NCBI GenBank assembly: GCA_903892905.1
Contig: CAITKI010000113.1
Location: forward strand, 1-44,267
DNA: 44,267 nt
Direction: 5' to 3'
From: an uncultured Microcaldota archaeon
Lineage (GTDB): Archaea; Micrarchaeota; Micrarchaeia; Anstonellales; Anstonellaceae
The notes beneath the pieces were generated by a model. That model was not told where the DNA came from. It saw only the letters and a list, made by a program, of their open reading frames with translations, and ran no database searches. This document shows, one piece after another, positions 14,391-29,445 of this stretch; position 1 is the stretch's first letter; every line of letters starts with the position of its first letter. The position numbers and the translations under genes are program-made.

Positions 14391-14461
14391 ATGATTTTAT
14401 GGAAACACAGCCGCTTTGGCGGCTTATTTCCAAAAATCCAAACGGAATGATTTTATGGAAA
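14391..14461 (+). repeat. 15-bp direct repeat (atgattttatggaaa) at the DUF655 gene start, 56 bp apart, flanking a hairpin
   Basis: Copies at 14391-14405 and 14447-14461; hairpin agccgc-tttg-gcggct between, with an outer tggaaa/tttcca stem. Confidence 0.85.
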
Positions 14462-18045: not shown

Positions 18046-18543
18046 ATGGCAAGGGACTTCGCCAAGGGGAAAAAGAGCGAAAATGCAAAAGCGCAAGGGG
18101 CAGCCGGGCATCATAGCGCGCAAGCAGGCGCAAGCGCGCACGCAGGATTGGGCAAGGCAGGCGCCGCGCAGGAAAAAGGCGCAAGCGCGCACGCGATGGG
18201 GCAAGGAGTGTGCATAATCTGCGGGGAAATAAGCACAGGCACCCCCGCCCTGCCCGAGTTCCCAATCCGCGCGGCAAGGAAGCTCCGCGCAATCCTTAAG
18301 CAGCCTGCGAAGCACACCATTGCATGCAAGGAACACCTCGCCGAGGCAAGGCAGCACCGCGCGAAATTCGAGAAAAAGCAGCAGGATTACCTGCTTGGTG
18401 CGGTTGCGTTTTTTGCATTGGTGCTGTTTGGCGGCCTGTTTTTCGGGAAGCTTGGCATCAGCACGTTTTTGCCTGCCATTTTGGGCGCGGCAATCATCGC
18501 ATTCCTTCCTTTCTTCTATTATTTTCCGTCGTTTGGGAAGTAG
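18046..18543 (+). CDS. Hypothetical protein: low-complexity Ala/His/Gly N-terminus, CxxC motif, two C-terminal TM segments
   Basis: ORF MARDFAKGKKSENAKAQG...GVCIICGEI...; TATA-like ctttataagg just upstream. Confidence 0.7.
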   Translation: MARDFAKGKKSENAKAQGAAGHHSAQAGASAHAGLGKAGAAQEKGASAHAMGQGVCIICGEISTGTPALPEFPIRAARKLRAILKQPAKHTIACKEHLAEARQHRAKFEKKQQDYLLGAVAFFALVLFGGLFFGKLGISTFLPAILGAAIIAFLPFFYYFPSFGK

Positions 18544-18594: not shown

Positions 18595-20235
18595 ATGGGA
18601 GGGGCGTTAGTACCAAAGCACATATTTCTTATCCTACTTCTTGCGCTTTCCCTCGTTCCGATTGCAAATGCCATTGCTTGCCAGGCATTCAATGGAGACT
18701 GCGGGCCGCAGGGCCAGGACCCAAGCCTGCCATGCTGCAGCACCCTTGTCTGCGCCCAGGGGCTGTGCAAGCAGGCATATGGCGGCGCCTGCAGCGCAGA
18801 TGCCGATTGCGGCAGCGGCCTGTTCTGCAGCGGGGGGGTGTGCAAGGGCTGCAACTGCAACACATTGGCAATCTGCAGCGGCGTGGCGTGCAGCTCAGGC
18901 GCGCAATGCTGCAGCGGCTCGTGCGGCGGCAGCCCCTCTGTATGCAAGCGCTGCCTGGGCATCGGCGACTCCTACCAGAACGGCATGGGCGCCTGCTGCT
19001 CGAGCCTCGTGCAGGACCCTGGCAGCGGCAAGTGCATCGAGGCTGCCACGCAAGGCGGCAGCGGCAACTGGTATGACAACATCTACGTCTGGGCGGGCCT
19101 CGCGGTGCTGATGTCCGCAATGTTCCTCGGGCTTGCCTATATGGCATCCCAGCTCTTCCGCGTCCAGGTCCTCGAGGCATGGGTGAGGATTGAGCTTGGC
19201 GAGCTTGTCAAGAGCATGGTGATCGCGGTTTTCTGCGTGGCGCTCATTGCAAGCACGAATGCCGCCGCGCAGTTCCTGTCAGGCGAATCCGGCGCCACCG
19301 ACGTCATCTCCGCCTCGCAGCAGTTCATGGTCACCCTTTACAGCGACGGGCACTCGCTTTACTCCAAGCTCGCCATCGTGTATTTCAACGTGGCGAAAGT
19401 GGCATCGTACTCCTACACGGCAGGCACATCGATTGGCGGCTATGCCACCATAAGCTACTCCTCCTCCCCCGCGTCGGGCATGTCGCCCCTTGTCGCCGAA
19501 GTTGGCCAGGCGCTTGACTCGGTGGCGAACTTCATGCTCCTTGCCGCAGCGCAGGCCGCGTTCCTGAAATTCTTCGGGGCAGCCGCGCTTGTCATGCTTC
19601 CCGTGGGCATTTTCCTGCGCTCGTTCTCATTCACGCGAAAGCTTGGCGCCACCTTGCTTGCCGCGACCATTGCATCCGCAGTCATCTACCCTGCATCCGT
19701 CCTGCTTTCGCAGCAGGTGTACGGCACTTTCTCGCCAGACCTCAAGGCGGGCATCGCGAACGTGGAGGTCACGCCAGCCGAAAACCCGCCCTCCTCCAGC
19801 GTGGTGTGCAACACCTTCATGCAGTATTTCGTGCAAAGCCCCATCCCGTTCCTCGGAGGCGAGATAGGCTGGTGGATAGTGGTGGGCACGCCAATCTGCG
19901 CCATTGCCGCAATCACGGGCGGCGGGTTTGTGGCATGCATGTCCGCGGTATACCAGATAATCAGCATGGTGTTCATGATAATCAAGGCGCTTTTCCCCAT
20001 ACTGCTTTTCGCCTCGGTGTTCATGACAATGGACGAAGGCACCAAGGTCGACAGGCTGATGGATAACTACTACGCGCCCCTGCATGATTACGCGCTGCCC
20101 ACAGTCGCCAAGTTCACCATGCTTTCCCTCACCACTTTCCTCATCCCCATAATAATCACGCTCTCGCTCCTGCGCGGGCTCGCCACTGCATTCGGCGGCG
20201 AGGCGCAGCTTTACGGGCTATCCAAGCTGGTTTGA
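18595..20235 (+). CDS. Cluster membrane protein 1: signal peptide, Cys-rich N-domain, then polytopic membrane domain
   Basis: CCSTLVCAQGLCKQAYGGACSADADCGSGLFCSGGVC...; shared motif LPVGIFLRSFSFTRKLGATLLA. Confidence 0.85.
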   Translation: MGGALVPKHIFLILLLALSLVPIANAIACQAFNGDCGPQGQDPSLPCCSTLVCAQGLCKQAYGGACSADADCGSGLFCSGGVCKGCNCNTLAICSGVACSSGAQCCSGSCGGSPSVCKRCLGIGDSYQNGMGACCSSLVQDPGSGKCIEAATQGGSGNWYDNIYVWAGLAVLMSAMFLGLAYMASQLFRVQVLEAWVRIELGELVKSMVIAVFCVALIASTNAAAQFLSGESGATDVISASQQFMVTLYSDGHSLYSKLAIVYFNVAKVASYSYTAGTSIGGYATISYSSSPASGMSPLVAEVGQALDSVANFMLLAAAQAAFLKFFGAAALVMLPVGIFLRSFSFTRKLGATLLAATIASAVIYPASVLLSQQVYGTFSPDLKAGIANVEVTPAENPPSSSVVCNTFMQYFVQSPIPFLGGEIGWWIVVGTPICAIAAITGGGFVACMSAVYQIISMVFMIIKALFPILLFASVFMTMDEGTKVDRLMDNYYAPLHDYALPTVAKFTMLSLTTFLIPIIITLSLLRGLATAFGGEAQLYGLSKLV

Positions 20236-21230
20236 TGAAATTTCCCCTAGCGCTTGCATTGGTCGTGTTCGCCTCTTCAGGGATTTGGGCAGCCAGCGCG
20301 CCGCCTGCCTACCTCGGCGCCAACTCGACTTGCAGCGTGGAAACCTTCGGCGTGGTGGGCGGGGGCATGGCAGTCTCGCTCATCACAGTCTCGTTCGCAA
20401 TCGTCTCGTTTGGCATTGCGCTTGCCTACATGTACTCCAAGGTGCGCGAGGACGCCGCAACCGGCGTGTGGGCAAAGGACGAGGCATTCAACCTCGTGAT
20501 TTCAGTTCTCCTGTTTGCCGGCCTTCTCATAGTCTTTTCCGCCTCCTGCTCGCTCGCCTATGACTATTCGGGCGGCAACCCCATCTACGCCTCGCAGAAG
20601 TACCTCGACTCGCTCATCTCCTCAAACGGGCTGAACATCCTAAAGACGCTCTCCTCGGACAGCATCACCAACCAGCTGGACGCCACCAAGTACCGCTACC
20701 TCGGGCTCACGCCGTTCTGGGGCGAGGGCGCGGCGCTGCGCTCCAACCGCAAGGCATACTCCGCGCACGAGGAGTACCTGATTGACCTGTACCTGCCCAT
20801 CATCGCCAGCCTCTCCGCGCAGAAATACATAATCACCGGCATTGCCTGGATGGGCGCCTATGTGCTGCTGCCATTCGCCTTCGTGATGCGGCTCATCCCG
20901 CCCACGCGCGACTTCGGCAACGTGCTCATCGCGCTTTTCTTCGGCCTCTACATAGCGGTGCCCACGCTCTACGCCATGAGCGGCAAGGTCTTCATGACGG
21001 ACATAGCGGGAGCAGTGTCGCCCTACACCACCGACTCGTCGCTTGAGAAGTTCTGCTCATACGGGCTGGACAACGCCCAGCCGGGCTCGTGCGGGCCCTC
21101 GAGCGGCACCGTGCTTTACAGGATAGGCTCCACCATCCCTCAGGCGGTGTTCCTCCCCAACCTCGCAATCATCGTGGCAATCAGCTGCATCATGGCGCTT
21201 TCAAAAGCATTGCGCGCGCTAGCGGTGTGA
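20235..21230 (+). CDS. Cluster membrane protein 2: signal peptide + polytopic domain
   Basis: TGATG stop/start overlap with the previous gene; shared motif LPFAFVMRLIPPTRDFGNVLIALFFGLYIAVP. Confidence 0.85.
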   Translation: MKFPLALALVVFASSGIWAASAPPAYLGANSTCSVETFGVVGGGMAVSLITVSFAIVSFGIALAYMYSKVREDAATGVWAKDEAFNLVISVLLFAGLLIVFSASCSLAYDYSGGNPIYASQKYLDSLISSNGLNILKTLSSDSITNQLDATKYRYLGLTPFWGEGAALRSNRKAYSAHEEYLIDLYLPIIASLSAQKYIITGIAWMGAYVLLPFAFVMRLIPPTRDFGNVLIALFFGLYIAVPTLYAMSGKVFMTDIAGAVSPYTTDSSLEKFCSYGLDNAQPGSCGPSSGTVLYRIGSTIPQAVFLPNLAIIVAISCIMALSKALRALAV

Positions 21231-21232
21231 AC

Positions 21233-24200
21233 ATGGAATTTGCAACCGGAAAGAAAAACAGCATCGGAATCCGTTCCCTCCTTTTCCTCAGCCTCGCGCT
21301 TCTCTCGCTCCTCGCCGCGCCGGCGCATGCAGCCGCCGTGACGTGCGGGCAGACCTTTGAGGGCTCAGGCACCTGCACCGGCGGCACCAATTCATTTTCC
21401 TGCTCCACGCTTACCCAAAACGGCATAGGCTGCTGCGAAGAGGCAGGCTGCCAGTGGTCTACTTCCCCGGATCAGGATACCTGCAAGGGCGGCACGCGCA
21501 CCGTGACCTGCTCGGGCTACAATGACAACCCCCAGGGATGCAATGCAATGGGCTGCAAGTTCAACATGAACGCAGGCGCAGGCAGCTGCGGGGGGAGCGT
21601 GGGCGGCAAAGGATATGGGGTGGCATGCAACAGCACAAGCGACTGCGCCAAGTGCCTGGTGTGCGACCCTGTTTCCAGCAAGTGCACGCAGAAGCCAGGC
21701 ATCTGCACCACCATTCCCGCGGAATACGTTCCGCAGGCCCCGCCCCTGGACCAGCCCGGCACAGGCATCACCCCGCAGTCCGCAATCGGGAACCTGGAAA
21801 GCGGCACCACTGGCGGGATGGGCGGCGCAGTGGTGGGAAGCGGGACCAACATCTACAATGCAGGATGGTTCTCGGACTGGAAGGCGATGGGGTTCATTGG
21901 CGTGGCAATCGTGTGCTCCATAATCGCGCTTGCGGCAATGATAGGCATTGCGTTCAACATGCCCGAGGTGCGCGCGTTTGCCAACACCGAGCTTCGGCAG
22001 GCCGTGATTTCGGTGCTGCTCATCGTGTCGCTCATCGCGATGGTCACGTTCTTCAACGAAATCGCGCATGACGCGGTGTATGCCGCAGGCCTGCCGGTTG
22101 CCTGCAACAACGGCGAGCCCTACAACGGCGAGCCCTGCTACGCCACGGCGGCAAAGGCATACCTCGGGCAGATTTATGACACCGGGAACGAGTATGCGCA
22201 GACCGAGCTGCGCGAGTCCATCGTGAACGCCAAGCGCGCGAGCTACGGCTACAACCTCAACCTGAACAAGATATACCTGCTCTTCGCAGGCATGTCCATC
22301 CGCTTCAACGCGGGCGACACGCTGGTCGCGGAGCGGCATGGCGCGCTTTTCACCCAGGCGGCAAAGATGATGTCGAGCATCTACTCGCAGAAGTATTTCA
22401 TCGACGTGATAACATTCGGCGTGGCGCCGCTTTTCATATTGCTTGGCATTGTGCTCCGCACCTTCTTCTTCACGCGCAAGCTCGGCGGGCTTCTCCTGGC
22501 AATGGCAATCTCGCTGTTCATAATCTACCCGCTCACCTATGCGTTTGCCTGGTACACGCTCAATGTCACGGTGTATGGCGAGAGGACGCTTGCTGTCGCC
22601 GACCCCAACTGCCCCGGCGAATGCACAGGCACCTATCCAGTCGCATTCTTCACCTCAAGCACAGGCGAGCTTGTGCAGTTTTCCACCATGCAGTCCATAA
22701 TGCGCGCAGGCATAAACGCGGCCAACTGGCCAAACGGCGGGCCGGGCGGGGCGTTCCCGGGGCTTGTGGCATGCCGCGACCTGGCTGCGATAAACCTGCC
22801 CTCAAGCGTGGCGCCGAATTCCTGCCCTGGCTGCCCTGACTACTGCCGCGACGTGCCGTTCCCCTCAGGCATCCCTGGCTGCAACATAACGCAGTGCTCT
22901 GCATGCAACGCCGGCTGCAAGATAGTGCGCCAGCGCCTCGACTGCCAGACCGACCCGTCCTGCGCAGGCAATTGCCCGCTTTCCTGCCGCACGCGCGTGC
23001 CCCTTGAGAACAAGTGCTTCAGCAACGAGGCCGGCGGCATCATCCCCGCCAACCTCGCAATCAGCTGCTCTGGCTGCGGCAAGTACCCTGCGTGGTGCCG
23101 CTTCCTGAAAAACGAGTCGGGCGTGCTCACGCGCGTCTACAACGACCCGAACAAGGACATGGCGTGCGCAAGGATTGATTCCGATCCCACCTGCCCGCAG
23201 CAGTGCTCCTATGTCACCAGCATGGGCAAGGACCTCACCTGCGACTCGCTTTGCAGCGACCCGATCAGCGACACGGTGTGCCCCAAGGAATGCCGGGTGA
23301 ACGAGCTTCTCAACAGCCCCTCATGGGCCAGCACGTATGACCTCGCCCCGCCCAACCTTACCAGCGCGTGCCGCGAAACGCCGCAGATAGCCGCGGCATG
23401 CTCTGCATGCGCCAACCACCCCGAGTGCCTGGTCACTGCAGGCGCAATCACCGGCTGCTCGAAATACCCAACCATTTCAAACGGCTCGGAGCTCTGCCTG
23501 GACTGCCCTGACTACTGCAGGCGCACCGCAGCCAACTTCAACGTCGTGTTTTCCAGCTTGTCAAACGCGGAGCGCAGCGCCTCCAACTTCCCTGACGTCT
23601 GCGTGCCCACGCAGACCAACAACATAAACTGCAGCGCTTCGGGCAATCCTCCTGCGTGCGCCTTAAACTGCTCGGTCAACGCCTCTCTTAACACGCCGCC
23701 CCAGCTTTGCAGGCCGCTGCAGACGCTTCCTAGTGCGGACAAGACGCTGTGCGGCGCCTGCCCTGATGAAACGCGCTACAGCCTTCGCTTCAACAAGTCT
23801 GGCATATGCCCTGGCGGAGGCTCCAGCACCCAGAACGATAGCGGCAACAATAACATCACGACAGGCGCGCCTGCCGGCGGCTATGACGTCGTCTTCTTCC
23901 CATCTGGCAATAAGATGGCATCTGGCGCGCCTGGCAAGATTGCCGGCACGCTTTGGCTTGCTGGCGGGGCGTCTGTCAACACAATTTCTGCACGCATCGA
24001 CCCTCCCAACCCAAGCAACACCTCCAACCCTGCGGGCTTCTGCAACGGCACAGGGGATGATGGCCAGGGCAGCGGCGGCGCCGCGCCCGCCGATGGCTCG
24101 ATACAATTCCAAGCCCCCACAATCCGGCTTGCAGCCATGAATATCAAGTACGAATACAAGTGGTATCTTGACGGCGTGCAAAACTCAAGCGGGCAAACCG

Positions 24201-25837: not shown

Positions 25838-25952
25838 AGATGAAAAAAACGAAGAGGGCGCCTGCAAGGGGCATGGAACGGTAAGGATGATATGAAGGGT
25901 GTGAAACGAAGAGGGCGCCCGGACAAGGGCATGAAGGGTAAGGATGATATGA
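25825..25952 (+). repeat. Tandem ~57-bp repeat at gene junction (aaggatratatga at 25825, 25883, 25940)
   Basis: aacgaagagggcgcc...caagggg/gcatg...ggtaaggatgatatga at 25848-25895 and 25905-25952. Confidence 0.9.
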
Positions 25953-26984: not shown

Positions 26985-28148
26985 ATGCACATGGCAAACG
27001 AAAAATCCCGCATCGCCCTCTTCGTTTTCCTCAGCCTTGCCGCCCTCCTTCCCCAAGCGCTGCACGCGGGCACGCCCTTCACCTGCGGCTCAGCGAATTT
27101 CAACGACACCATTCAGGTCTGCGCGATTGCCGTGCTTGCAATGTTCGCCCTCATCGCGCTTGCCTACATCGGCGGCGAGGCAATGCAAAGCCCCCGCATG
27201 CTTTCCTGGGCAAAGTCCGAGGCGGTGCAGGCGTTCGCCTCGCTCGTGATAGCGTCCATCCTGATTTTCGTGCTGTTCACGATGTGCAGCTTCCAGGTCG
27301 GCGAGCTGAATTCGGTTTTCGGCTCCGCCATGCCGCTGATATACCAGGATGCGCCGGCGCCCTATGCAGGGGGGCAGGACAGCCTGTACACAGGGGCAAT
27401 GCGCTACACCGAAAACCTCGCGGCGCTCGCGCTTGGCAACATCGCATCGCTGCGCTACGACCTGGGCGCATATGAGCTGCGGACGTCTTTCAACACGTTC
27501 GTGTGCAACGGGGTTTGCATCTTCTCGCTTTCAAGCACCAGCGTGTCCTACTTCGGCGGCGAGAGCATGAACCTGGCAATCTCCAACAACCTGCTTGGCA
27601 TCGCCACGGTCTCCTACCTCTCCGTGATTTTCCAGTACTTCACGCTGGTGTACATCTACAACGGGCTCTTCCTCACCTTCCTGCCGCTTGCGATAATCAT
27701 CCGGTCCATCCCATTCTTGCGCCACTTCGGCGGCTCGCTCATCGCGATTTTCGTGGCGCTTTACATAATGTACCCGCTCATGCTGGTGGCCGACGCCTAC
27801 ATCGCGCCAGGGCTGGCCTCGGGCAGCGGCGCGCCCATAACAATGTACAGCCGCGACGGGCTGAACTGCCAGGGCATCGGCGTGTTCTCCACCGCCGCGC
27901 ACACCGGCGCGGTGTGCAGCCAGGGAAGCAGGCCTGAATGGGACATGGAAGGCAAATGGCAGCAGTCGGACATGACCAATCTGTCTCCAAACACGCTTGG
28001 CAGCGCAATCCAGTTCAACGTGCTCATATTCCTCACCGCGATATTCCTGCCTGCGGTCAATTTCATAGCGATTGCGGCATTCGGCCGCGAGCTTTCGCGA
28101 CTGCTCGGCGAGGAAGTGGACATGTCAAGATTGGGGCAGATGATTTGA
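26985..28148 (+). CDS. Cluster membrane protein 5: signal peptide + polytopic domain
   Basis: MHMANEKSRIALFVFLSLAALLPQALHAG; shared motif LPLAIIIRSIPFLRHFGGSLIAIFVALYIMYP. Confidence 0.85.
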   Translation: MHMANEKSRIALFVFLSLAALLPQALHAGTPFTCGSANFNDTIQVCAIAVLAMFALIALAYIGGEAMQSPRMLSWAKSEAVQAFASLVIASILIFVLFTMCSFQVGELNSVFGSAMPLIYQDAPAPYAGGQDSLYTGAMRYTENLAALALGNIASLRYDLGAYELRTSFNTFVCNGVCIFSLSSTSVSYFGGESMNLAISNNLLGIATVSYLSVIFQYFTLVYIYNGLFLTFLPLAIIIRSIPFLRHFGGSLIAIFVALYIMYPLMLVADAYIAPGLASGSGAPITMYSRDGLNCQGIGVFSTAAHTGAVCSQGSRPEWDMEGKWQQSDMTNLSPNTLGSAIQFNVLIFLTAIFLPAVNFIAIAAFGRELSRLLGEEVDMSRLGQMI

Positions 28149-28211
28149 TGGCGCATGCAAGCAGCTGCAATGCGCGCCAATCCTGGCGGAACAGGCAGAT
28201 GATTTGATGGC
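28135..28211 (+). repeat. 18-bp exact direct repeat (ggcagatgatttgatggc), 59 bp apart, flanking two hairpins
   Basis: Copies 28135-28152 and 28194-28211; hairpins gcgcat...atgcgc (28151-28175) and cgcca-atcc-tggcg (28174-28187). Confidence 0.92.
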
Positions 28212-29376
28212 AAGCGGAAAAGCAACCTTCGGCAGGAAGCCAAACGGCTACCTTCTCCTGCTCAGCGTATTTGCCATCCTTCTCCTTGTGCAGCTTGCAA
28301 GCAGCACCTCTGCGTTCGAGGATTACCTTACAAAGCAGCAGACCTACTTCCAGAACCGCGTGGGCGGCTGGTGGGGCATTGCCGTCACGGCAATACTGAT
28401 ATGCATCGCGTTCAACACGCTGGTGTACATGCTGGGCTTTGCCCTTGAGAGCCAGGAGGTGAAGAACTACGCAAAGGCCGAGTTCCTCCAGGTGAGCGCA
28501 AGCTCGCTGATGATATTCCTCGCAGTCTCCCTCATCTTCACCGTCACCAGCGGAAGCGCGAACGTATCAGGATTTTATTTCATGGGCGACCTGCTTGGCG
28601 ACGGGGCGTCAAGCATAAGCTGCGCGGCCTCGCAGACCGGCAGATTCTACTTCTGGAAAGGCGAGGGCGACTTCGGCCAGGGCCCCATCGGCGCATTCAA
28701 GTGCAAGCTGCAGGAAAAGATAAACGCGCTTGACAACGCATACGCCGACGTCTCGCATGCCAACCTTGCTGTGGAGCAGTACACCTCCATATGCTATTAT
28801 CTTCTCGGCGTGCCTGTCTATTGCGGGGACTGGGACCTGGGCATGCACAAGCGCGTGGAGGAGGCGCACCTGGTGGCGTCCAAGCTCGTGGACCTGCAGG
28901 TGGCGCTGCATTCCGAGTTCGTGCTTGCCGAGTACGTGCAGCGCAACATGCTGTCCGTGTTCCTGCCCTTCGGCCTGGTGCTGCGCATCTTCCCCCTCAC
29001 CCGCGGGGTGGGCGGGCTTTTCATCGCAATCGGCGTGGGCTTTTTCTTCGTCTGGCCCACATTCTTCCTGCTCACCGACCCGACATTCGTAAAGGTGAAC
29101 AACCCGCCCTCGCAGGCAATGCAGCAGGGCGTGTGCTTCACTGGCTTCCGCGGGAGCGCGGTGCTGCTTGCAGGCGTGGTGCAGACGGGCGGCGCAGGGC
29201 AGCAGTCGGACCTGGCGATACTCCAGGGCAAGGACCTGGTGTACCAGATGACAATCGCCACGCAGTTCTACCCCTTCATCGCGCTCGTGCTCACGCTCAT
29301 ATTCATACGCGCCATGACACCGCTTCTCGGCGGGGACATGGGCGAGCTCATGAAAATGGTATCGAGGCTGGGATGA
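28207..29376 (+). CDS. Cluster membrane protein 6: N-terminal TM + polytopic domain
   Basis: Shared motif LPFGLVLRIFPLTRGVGGLFIAIGVGFFFVWP; start ATG in the second repeat copy. Confidence 0.85.
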   Translation: MASGKATFGRKPNGYLLLLSVFAILLLVQLASSTSAFEDYLTKQQTYFQNRVGGWWGIAVTAILICIAFNTLVYMLGFALESQEVKNYAKAEFLQVSASSLMIFLAVSLIFTVTSGSANVSGFYFMGDLLGDGASSISCAASQTGRFYFWKGEGDFGQGPIGAFKCKLQEKINALDNAYADVSHANLAVEQYTSICYYLLGVPVYCGDWDLGMHKRVEEAHLVASKLVDLQVALHSEFVLAEYVQRNMLSVFLPFGLVLRIFPLTRGVGGLFIAIGVGFFFVWPTFFLLTDPTFVKVNNPPSQAMQQGVCFTGFRGSAVLLAGVVQTGGAGQQSDLAILQGKDLVYQMTIATQFYPFIALVLTLIFIRAMTPLLGGDMGELMKMVSRLG

Positions 29377-29445
29377 TGATTTTTGCTTCGCAAAAATGCG
29401 CGCCAAAAGCTGCGCTTTTGACGCTGGTATCGAGGCTAGGATGAT
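29357..29445 (+). repeat. 21-bp direct repeat (tggtatcgaggct[g/a]ggatgat), 68 bp apart, flanking two perfect hairpins
   Basis: Copies 29357-29377 and 29425-29445; hairpins atttttgc-ttc-gcaaaaat (29379-29397) and caaaagc-tgc-gcttttg (29404-29420). Confidence 0.92.

Follow-up and report, generated by a model that had tools for sequence, protein, structure and literature searches.

The window analysed in this work, the whole stretch of 44,267 nucleotides of contig CAITKI010000113.1 from an uncultured Microcaldota archaeon, belongs to a fragmented genome assembly (154 contigs, 88% complete; G000 in the following). At positions 18595-40425 it carries an operon whose products are polytopic membrane proteins, paralogous to one another, and giant Cys-rich proteins; none of those searched gave a Pfam or NCBIfam match, genes 5 and 6 included. 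The AF2 model of gene 6 reached a pLDDT of 71 and had no PDB match, and relatives of its product occur in 95 of the 99 related genomes. At the junction of these two genes, the sequence GGCAGATGATTTGATGGC forms an exact 18-nt direct repeat (100% identity, two copies only, spacing 59). The whole window contains three exact direct repeats of at least 18 nt within 300 nt, compared to none in 20 shuffles. The coordinates of all features are collected in Table 1.

Table 1. Features of the gene 5/gene 6 junction and of related sites (positions in the window unless another locus is named)
Feature	Coordinates	Strand	Description
Sister junction gene 1/gene 2	20233-20237	+	Intact TGATG overlap; G003 keeps the overlap, with gene 2 N-terminally extended there
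Gene 3/gene 4 insertion	25838-25951	+	114 nt (2 x 57 nt); GGATRATATGA three times; absent from G003
Gene 5	26985-28148	+	Polytopic membrane protein, unknown family; TGA end within copy 1; ortholog in G003
Copy 1 of junction	28135-28152	+	Gene 5 TGA at 28146-28148, overlapping ATG at 28148-28150
Putative relay mini-ORF	28148-28207	+	19 codons, MAHASSCNARQSWRNRQMI followed by a stop; opens at copy-1 ATG; overlaps gene 5 and gene 6 by TGATG
Insert between copies	28153-28193		41 nt; two weak hairpins, about 28151-28175 and 28175-28188; absent from G003
Copy 2 of junction	28194-28211	+	Gene 6 ATG at 28207-28209; original upstream context AGATGAT
Gene 6	28207-29376	+	Polytopic membrane protein, 389 aa; 90% identity to G003 ortholog
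Gene 6 end duplication	29346-29445	+	29346-29377 and 29414-29445, 68-nt spacing, around two-hairpin element
Two-hairpin family sites	29374-29428; L103:5029-5094(-); L078:6125-6179(-); L161:1501-1548(-); L119:1448-1494(-); L049:16419-16543		

The duplicated stop/start junction that the first-pass annotation had reported at 28135-28211 is confirmed. The repeat is exact at both coordinates and, given the open reading frame 26985-28148, copy 1 keeps the stop of gene 5 and copy 2 supplies the ATG of gene 6, for which a TTG at 28204 is the sole other listed in-frame start. From the stop of gene 5 to the start of gene 6 there is a gap of 58 nt, so that the pair itself shows neither a 1-nt nor a 4-nt overlap. 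Since 59 is 2 mod 3, the copy-1 ATG (28148) and gene 6 lie in different frames, in agreement with the first-pass annotation, and the reading of the sister junction between genes 1 and 2 as an intact TGATG was verified in the window sequence. The frame opened by the copy-1 ATG ends with a TGA (28205-28207) that again overlaps the ATG of gene 6 as TGATG, which gives the order gene 5 - TGATG - 19 codons - TGATG - gene 6 with a -1 spacing at each step.

The history of this arrangement can be read from the nearest relative, Candidatus Micrarchaeota archaeon isolate LacPavin_0419_WC90_MAG_54_17, a MAG of the LacPavin series (G003; the relevant contig C10 is JAPLWX010000049.1), whose gene 5 and gene 6 products have an amino acid identity to those of the window of 79% and 89% by tblastn, or 80% and 90% over aligned codons. 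The orthologous junction of G003 reads GGGCAGATGATATGATGGCAAGC, an uninterrupted one-base stop/start overlap (TGATG) whose left side matches copy 1 and whose right side matches copy 2 of the window, both flanks being homologous; the right flank of copy 2, ATGGCAAGC, is common to the gene 6 start of G003. In a global alignment of the syntenic region the window has exactly 59 extra bases at this position. The first-pass annotation had predicted an ancestral 1-nt overlap without the insert and a start displaced from the stop by the insertion, and both are borne out by the G003 junction; the opposite pattern, the same spacing in relatives that lack an uninterrupted junction, was not seen. Of the relatives further away, G005, G007 and G014 show a candidate start that forms a 4-nt ATGA overlap with this stop, G006 has an in-frame extension from it and G009 has TAATG, then a short frame. 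The overlap is therefore likely the ancestral state of the gene 5/6 junction, and since the TGATG of G003 and the ATGA overlaps of G005, G007 and G014 point the same way, the 59 bp are most simply a gain in the lineage of the window. Both copies in the window carry ATT as the codon preceding the stop, in comparison to ATA in G003 and several outgroups; the copies are thus younger than that change and the duplication is recent.

The first-pass annotation did not mention that junctions other than gene 5/6 are duplicated as well, both in the operon and elsewhere in the sub-clade. Besides the duplication at the end of gene 6, the window carries an insertion between genes 3 and 4 whose 57-nt units are 75% alike, at a junction that is a simple overlap in G003. 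At its gene 6/7 junction (L049:16400-16600, corresponding to G003:C10:35399-35599), G003 has further perfect tandem units of 70 nt, two of which encode MIFPSEKCAPNPPDLTLVSRLG followed by a stop, linked by +1 gaps to a shorter frame, after which a last TGATG leads into gene 7, so that an unbroken chain of mini-ORFs reaches gene 7. In the aro/trp operon of G003, a 65-nt duplication lies at the junction of a pheA-like and a tyrA-like gene, where the duplicated gene start MRIAIAGIG persists between the copies; this duplication is younger-looking and makes the mechanism class plain. No DNA match to the aro operon junctions of G003 was found in the genome of the window.

In a survey of 305 junctions from sampled stretches, with spacers of 25-200 nt and permuted pairs as the null, stop/start repeats were found six times at a score of at least 12 (0.09 expected) and ten times at a score of at least 10 (1.15 expected). 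All six of the former are in G000 and G003, the two species that make up the sub-clade. Copies in register on stop and start are thus commoner than among permuted pairs, as in tandem junction duplication. Exact 13-mer junction repeats numbered 14 per 644 genes in G000 and G003 vs 1 per about 595 in other relatives (Fisher p = 0.001), a comparison that is partly post hoc, as the window's own operon is included. As separate observations, a start-region repeat, ATGATTTTATGGAAA, is found in both species (window 14391-14461 and G003:C10 about 21162-21286; spacing 56 and 105 nt), in a region with a hairpin-bearing 48-nt length difference between the two, and a second exact 18-nt direct repeat of the window, AGGCGCAAGCGCGCACGC (18126-18143 and 18177-18194; spacing 51), lies in a region with 55- and 20-nt insertions relative to G003.

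For the gene 5/6 junction, the reading that we favour, and regard as reasonably probable, is that a recent local duplication split an ancestral TGATG overlap and left a mini-ORF that could hand ribosomes on from gene 5 to gene 6 in the manner of a MIRU. Starting from genes that overlapped by one base as in G003, a local event in the lineage of the window would have duplicated an 18-nt stretch that reaches from the stop of gene 5 to the start of gene 6 and includes the initiation context, with 41 nt inserted in between. Neither gene would have been harmed, as the end of gene 5 stays in copy 1 and the start of gene 6 stays with its upstream context in copy 2. Owing to the length of 59 nt, the copy-1 ATG opens the 19-codon frame towards the TGATG of copy 2, and ribosomes might be passed along by two -1 steps. 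The mutation itself could have been a duplication with filler, e.g. by fill-in of a staggered break or by template switching.

In short-overlap gene pairs of the TGATG/ATGA type, the two genes are coupled through termination-reinitiation (Huber et al., 2019, PMC6728339; 2023, PMC10666635), and the G003 junction as well as the sister junction of the window resemble them. Each half of the split junction recreates such a -1 overlap; the window differs in that the overlap is duplicated, with the used stop and start apart. Haloferax no longer reinitiates across a gap of about 20 nt (PMC10666635), and the gap in the window should therefore uncouple genes 5 and 6 altogether unless the mini-ORF relays ribosomes. 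The weakened coupling suggested in the first-pass annotation is thus not established: an untranslated mini-ORF should abolish coupling rather than weaken it, and a putative relay through the mini-ORF is a serious alternative.

The most serious competitor to this reading shares the same insertion history and comes close to the first-pass annotation, and we see it as possible though considerably less probable: the mini-ORF would be unused, coupling to gene 5 would be lost and gene 6 would be initiated independently at copy 2. Copy 2 has its own upstream context and may initiate gene 6 de novo, and direct reinitiation across the gap is abolished by the Haloferax data. Furthermore, the relay is compatible with 98% of shuffled inserts when the junction ends are kept, because the motif places stop codons in two of the frames immediately ahead of the start; being mechanically expected from the junction motif, it is therefore no evidence of selection. 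Genome-wide selection for relays was likewise rejected, as an excess in a first sample (11 vs 5.8 expected) failed to recur in a fresh one (1 vs 1.8) and relays at duplicated junctions were no better than with shuffled fillers (P = 0.19). Against independent initiation, the SD-like AGATGAT of copy 2 is weak and only a partial match to the archaeal SD, whereas an overlapping ATG followed by an open frame is exactly the known reinitiating arrangement. The 16S 3' end with the anti-SD was not found in G000, where the match reaches only to model position 1343, close to the edge of a contig. In the same genome, a 16S rRNA match is split between model positions 828 and 863 by about 700 nt (G000:C88:32490-33186) that may represent an intron.

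The remaining alternatives concern the nature of the 41-nt insert. The first-pass annotation had described it as two hairpins, and both are present; however, the one formed by GCGCATGCA and TGCAATGCGC is bulged, in contrast to the perfect CGCCA-ATCC-TGGCG, and the two cannot form fully together because base 28175 is common to both. Folding is modestly better than in shuffles (z = -2.4 for the 41-nt insert, z = -1.35 for the 59-nt unit). Known RNA families in the window are limited to LSU rRNA and one tRNA.

It could be argued that the unit is an ordinary old 59-bp tandem duplication whose middle has decayed beyond recognition, all the more as true duplications over most of the unit exist elsewhere in the sub-clade, such as the 57-, 65- and 70-nt examples above. 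We rate this as rather unlikely. Only 18 of the 59 nt are repeated, and the insert is unlike both flanks save a 13-nt stretch: comparison to the upstream flank gave no resemblance (p = 0.72), and downstream 12 of 13 nt match gene 6 at 28293-28305 (p = 0.003, uncorrected for about nine targets). The fourfold-site divergence between the window and G003, 0.34-0.37, is too low for a duplicate made after their split to have become unrecognisable; such a copy should stay at least about 60% source-like. In addition, all 18 core bases are identical, including the unconstrained ones. Flank comparisons and divergence together led us to reject the idea that the insert derives from a flank by decay.

Another origin would be a mobile hairpin element. 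Both genomes are rich in short hairpins. Perfect hairpins (stem of at least 7, loop of 3-4) reach 1.6-1.7 per kb in intergenic DNA of G000 and G003, vs about 0.09 in shuffles (~19-fold) and 0.24 when the other sampled relatives are pooled; most of these congeners are low, apart from G005 with 1.24 per kb in a small sample. Examples are window 29379-29425 and a single spacer in G000:C66 with four hairpins. The excess is alike in co-directional and divergent spacers, and therefore the hairpins are not simply terminators. As a possible driver, a Y1 transposase was considered and dropped: it occurs in G003, G001 and G004 but no copy was found in G000, which leaves no clear link. G000 and G003 also contain a dispersed two-hairpin family, including the gene 6/7 spacer, in which the CGCCAA...TTGACG ends are constant, a C-A mismatch is conserved and the stems covary strongly; 11 pairs show changes in both partners, a value that 0 of 500 shuffles reached, and the counts lean towards the structure because the alignment was collected with a model of that same structure. 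The hairpin stems of the G003 gene 6/7 junction differ from those of the window only by double compensatory changes. At Rfam gathering scores the window copy has no match. Similar two-hairpin units, KMSASADNSPSASRLTK in a Dph2-like gene (L078:6125-6179(-)) and comparable DNA in L193 (G003:C50:12059-12113), are reminiscent of the Rickettsia palindromic elements inserted in genes.

That the gene 5/6 insert is a REP/BIME- or MIRU-like member of such a group, related to the two-hairpin unit at genes 6/7 and inserted with a target duplication, appears quite unlikely. This idea draws on the motif AATGCGCGCC-AATCCT, which is found in the insert and in the G003 gene 6/7 spacer unit, in almost identical register relative to TGATG (0 of 1000 shuffles as high, uncorrected for about nine targets), and on the linker AATGCGCGCCAA between hairpins, which is common to the insert and the two-hairpin family (p <= 0.002 by shuffling, uncorrected for nine targets). 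Yet a leave-one-out covariance model of the family, built without the gene 5/6 insert, did not recover the insert from the window even with E values up to 10 allowed, while the gene 6/7 unit was found at 1e-14. Despite the suggestive linker match, we therefore rejected membership in that family. Searches of the own genome and nine congeners gave only weak, short, chance-level matches to the insert, which rules it out as a dispersed repeat, with no other copy in the genome or genus and no terminal inverted repeats. Finally, an artefact of the metagenome-assembled genome, conceivable for so fragmented an assembly, is very improbable, as both flanks are in frame and functional, similar junction repeats are present in the separately binned G003 and the 18-nt repeat is shorter than the k-mers usual in assembly. 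The most economical reading remains a local duplication with filler, the latter perhaps patched from nearby sequence.

In comparison to known systems, the duplicated junction with its mini-ORF comes closest to the mycobacterial MIRU, in which a spacer with a small ORF at an operon junction acts as an analogous relay (Supply et al., 1997, as described in PMC12548453). Like a MIRU, the unit is a short spacer between co-directional genes with a short ORF that overlaps the flanking stop and start, by -1 on both sides and not by -4, its coupling to the flanking genes being putative. The senX3-regX3 MIRU units of 77 bp and 53 bp (PMC4213456) and the window spacings of 59 and 68 fall without exception into the 2 mod 3 length class, in which such a chain is preserved. 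In contrast, MIRU are dispersed members of one homologous family, for which a -4 spacing has been described, whereas the window unit is without homologous copies, uses -1 spacing and takes its repeat from the local junction. The paired hairpins of REP/BIME resemble the gene 6/7 spacer and other loci, with a dispersed two-hairpin unit and compensatory stem changes; membership of the gene 5/6 insert is unsupported by the leave-one-out model. A MITE-like target-site duplication is alike in the direct repeats that flank an insert and differs in that the window has an 18-nt duplication without inverted termini or a second copy, in which the duplicated bases are the functional stop and start.

Overlapping genes that come apart are rarely caught in the act, and the unsplit junction of G003 provides the before state. 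Duplication of the overlap is a simple one-step separation that leaves both genes intact, and suggests that spacers with a MIRU-like relay can originate on the spot, with no mobile repeat family involved. Both junctions together offer a matched natural pair for chained reinitiation through a 19-codon frame in archaea. Junction duplication across one sub-clade is more interesting than the single gene 5/6 site. Tentatively, we propose that overlapping operon junctions in this sub-clade may be unpacked by recurrent stop/start duplications with spacings of mostly ~50-70 nt, alongside a process that seeds short perfect intergenic hairpins. As each duplicated TGATG or ATGA brings along a start as well as a stop, the spacer would then act as a self-made MIRU-like relay. 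If this doubtful reading is true, it would amount to a one-step route from overlapping to separated genes in which coupling is able to survive.
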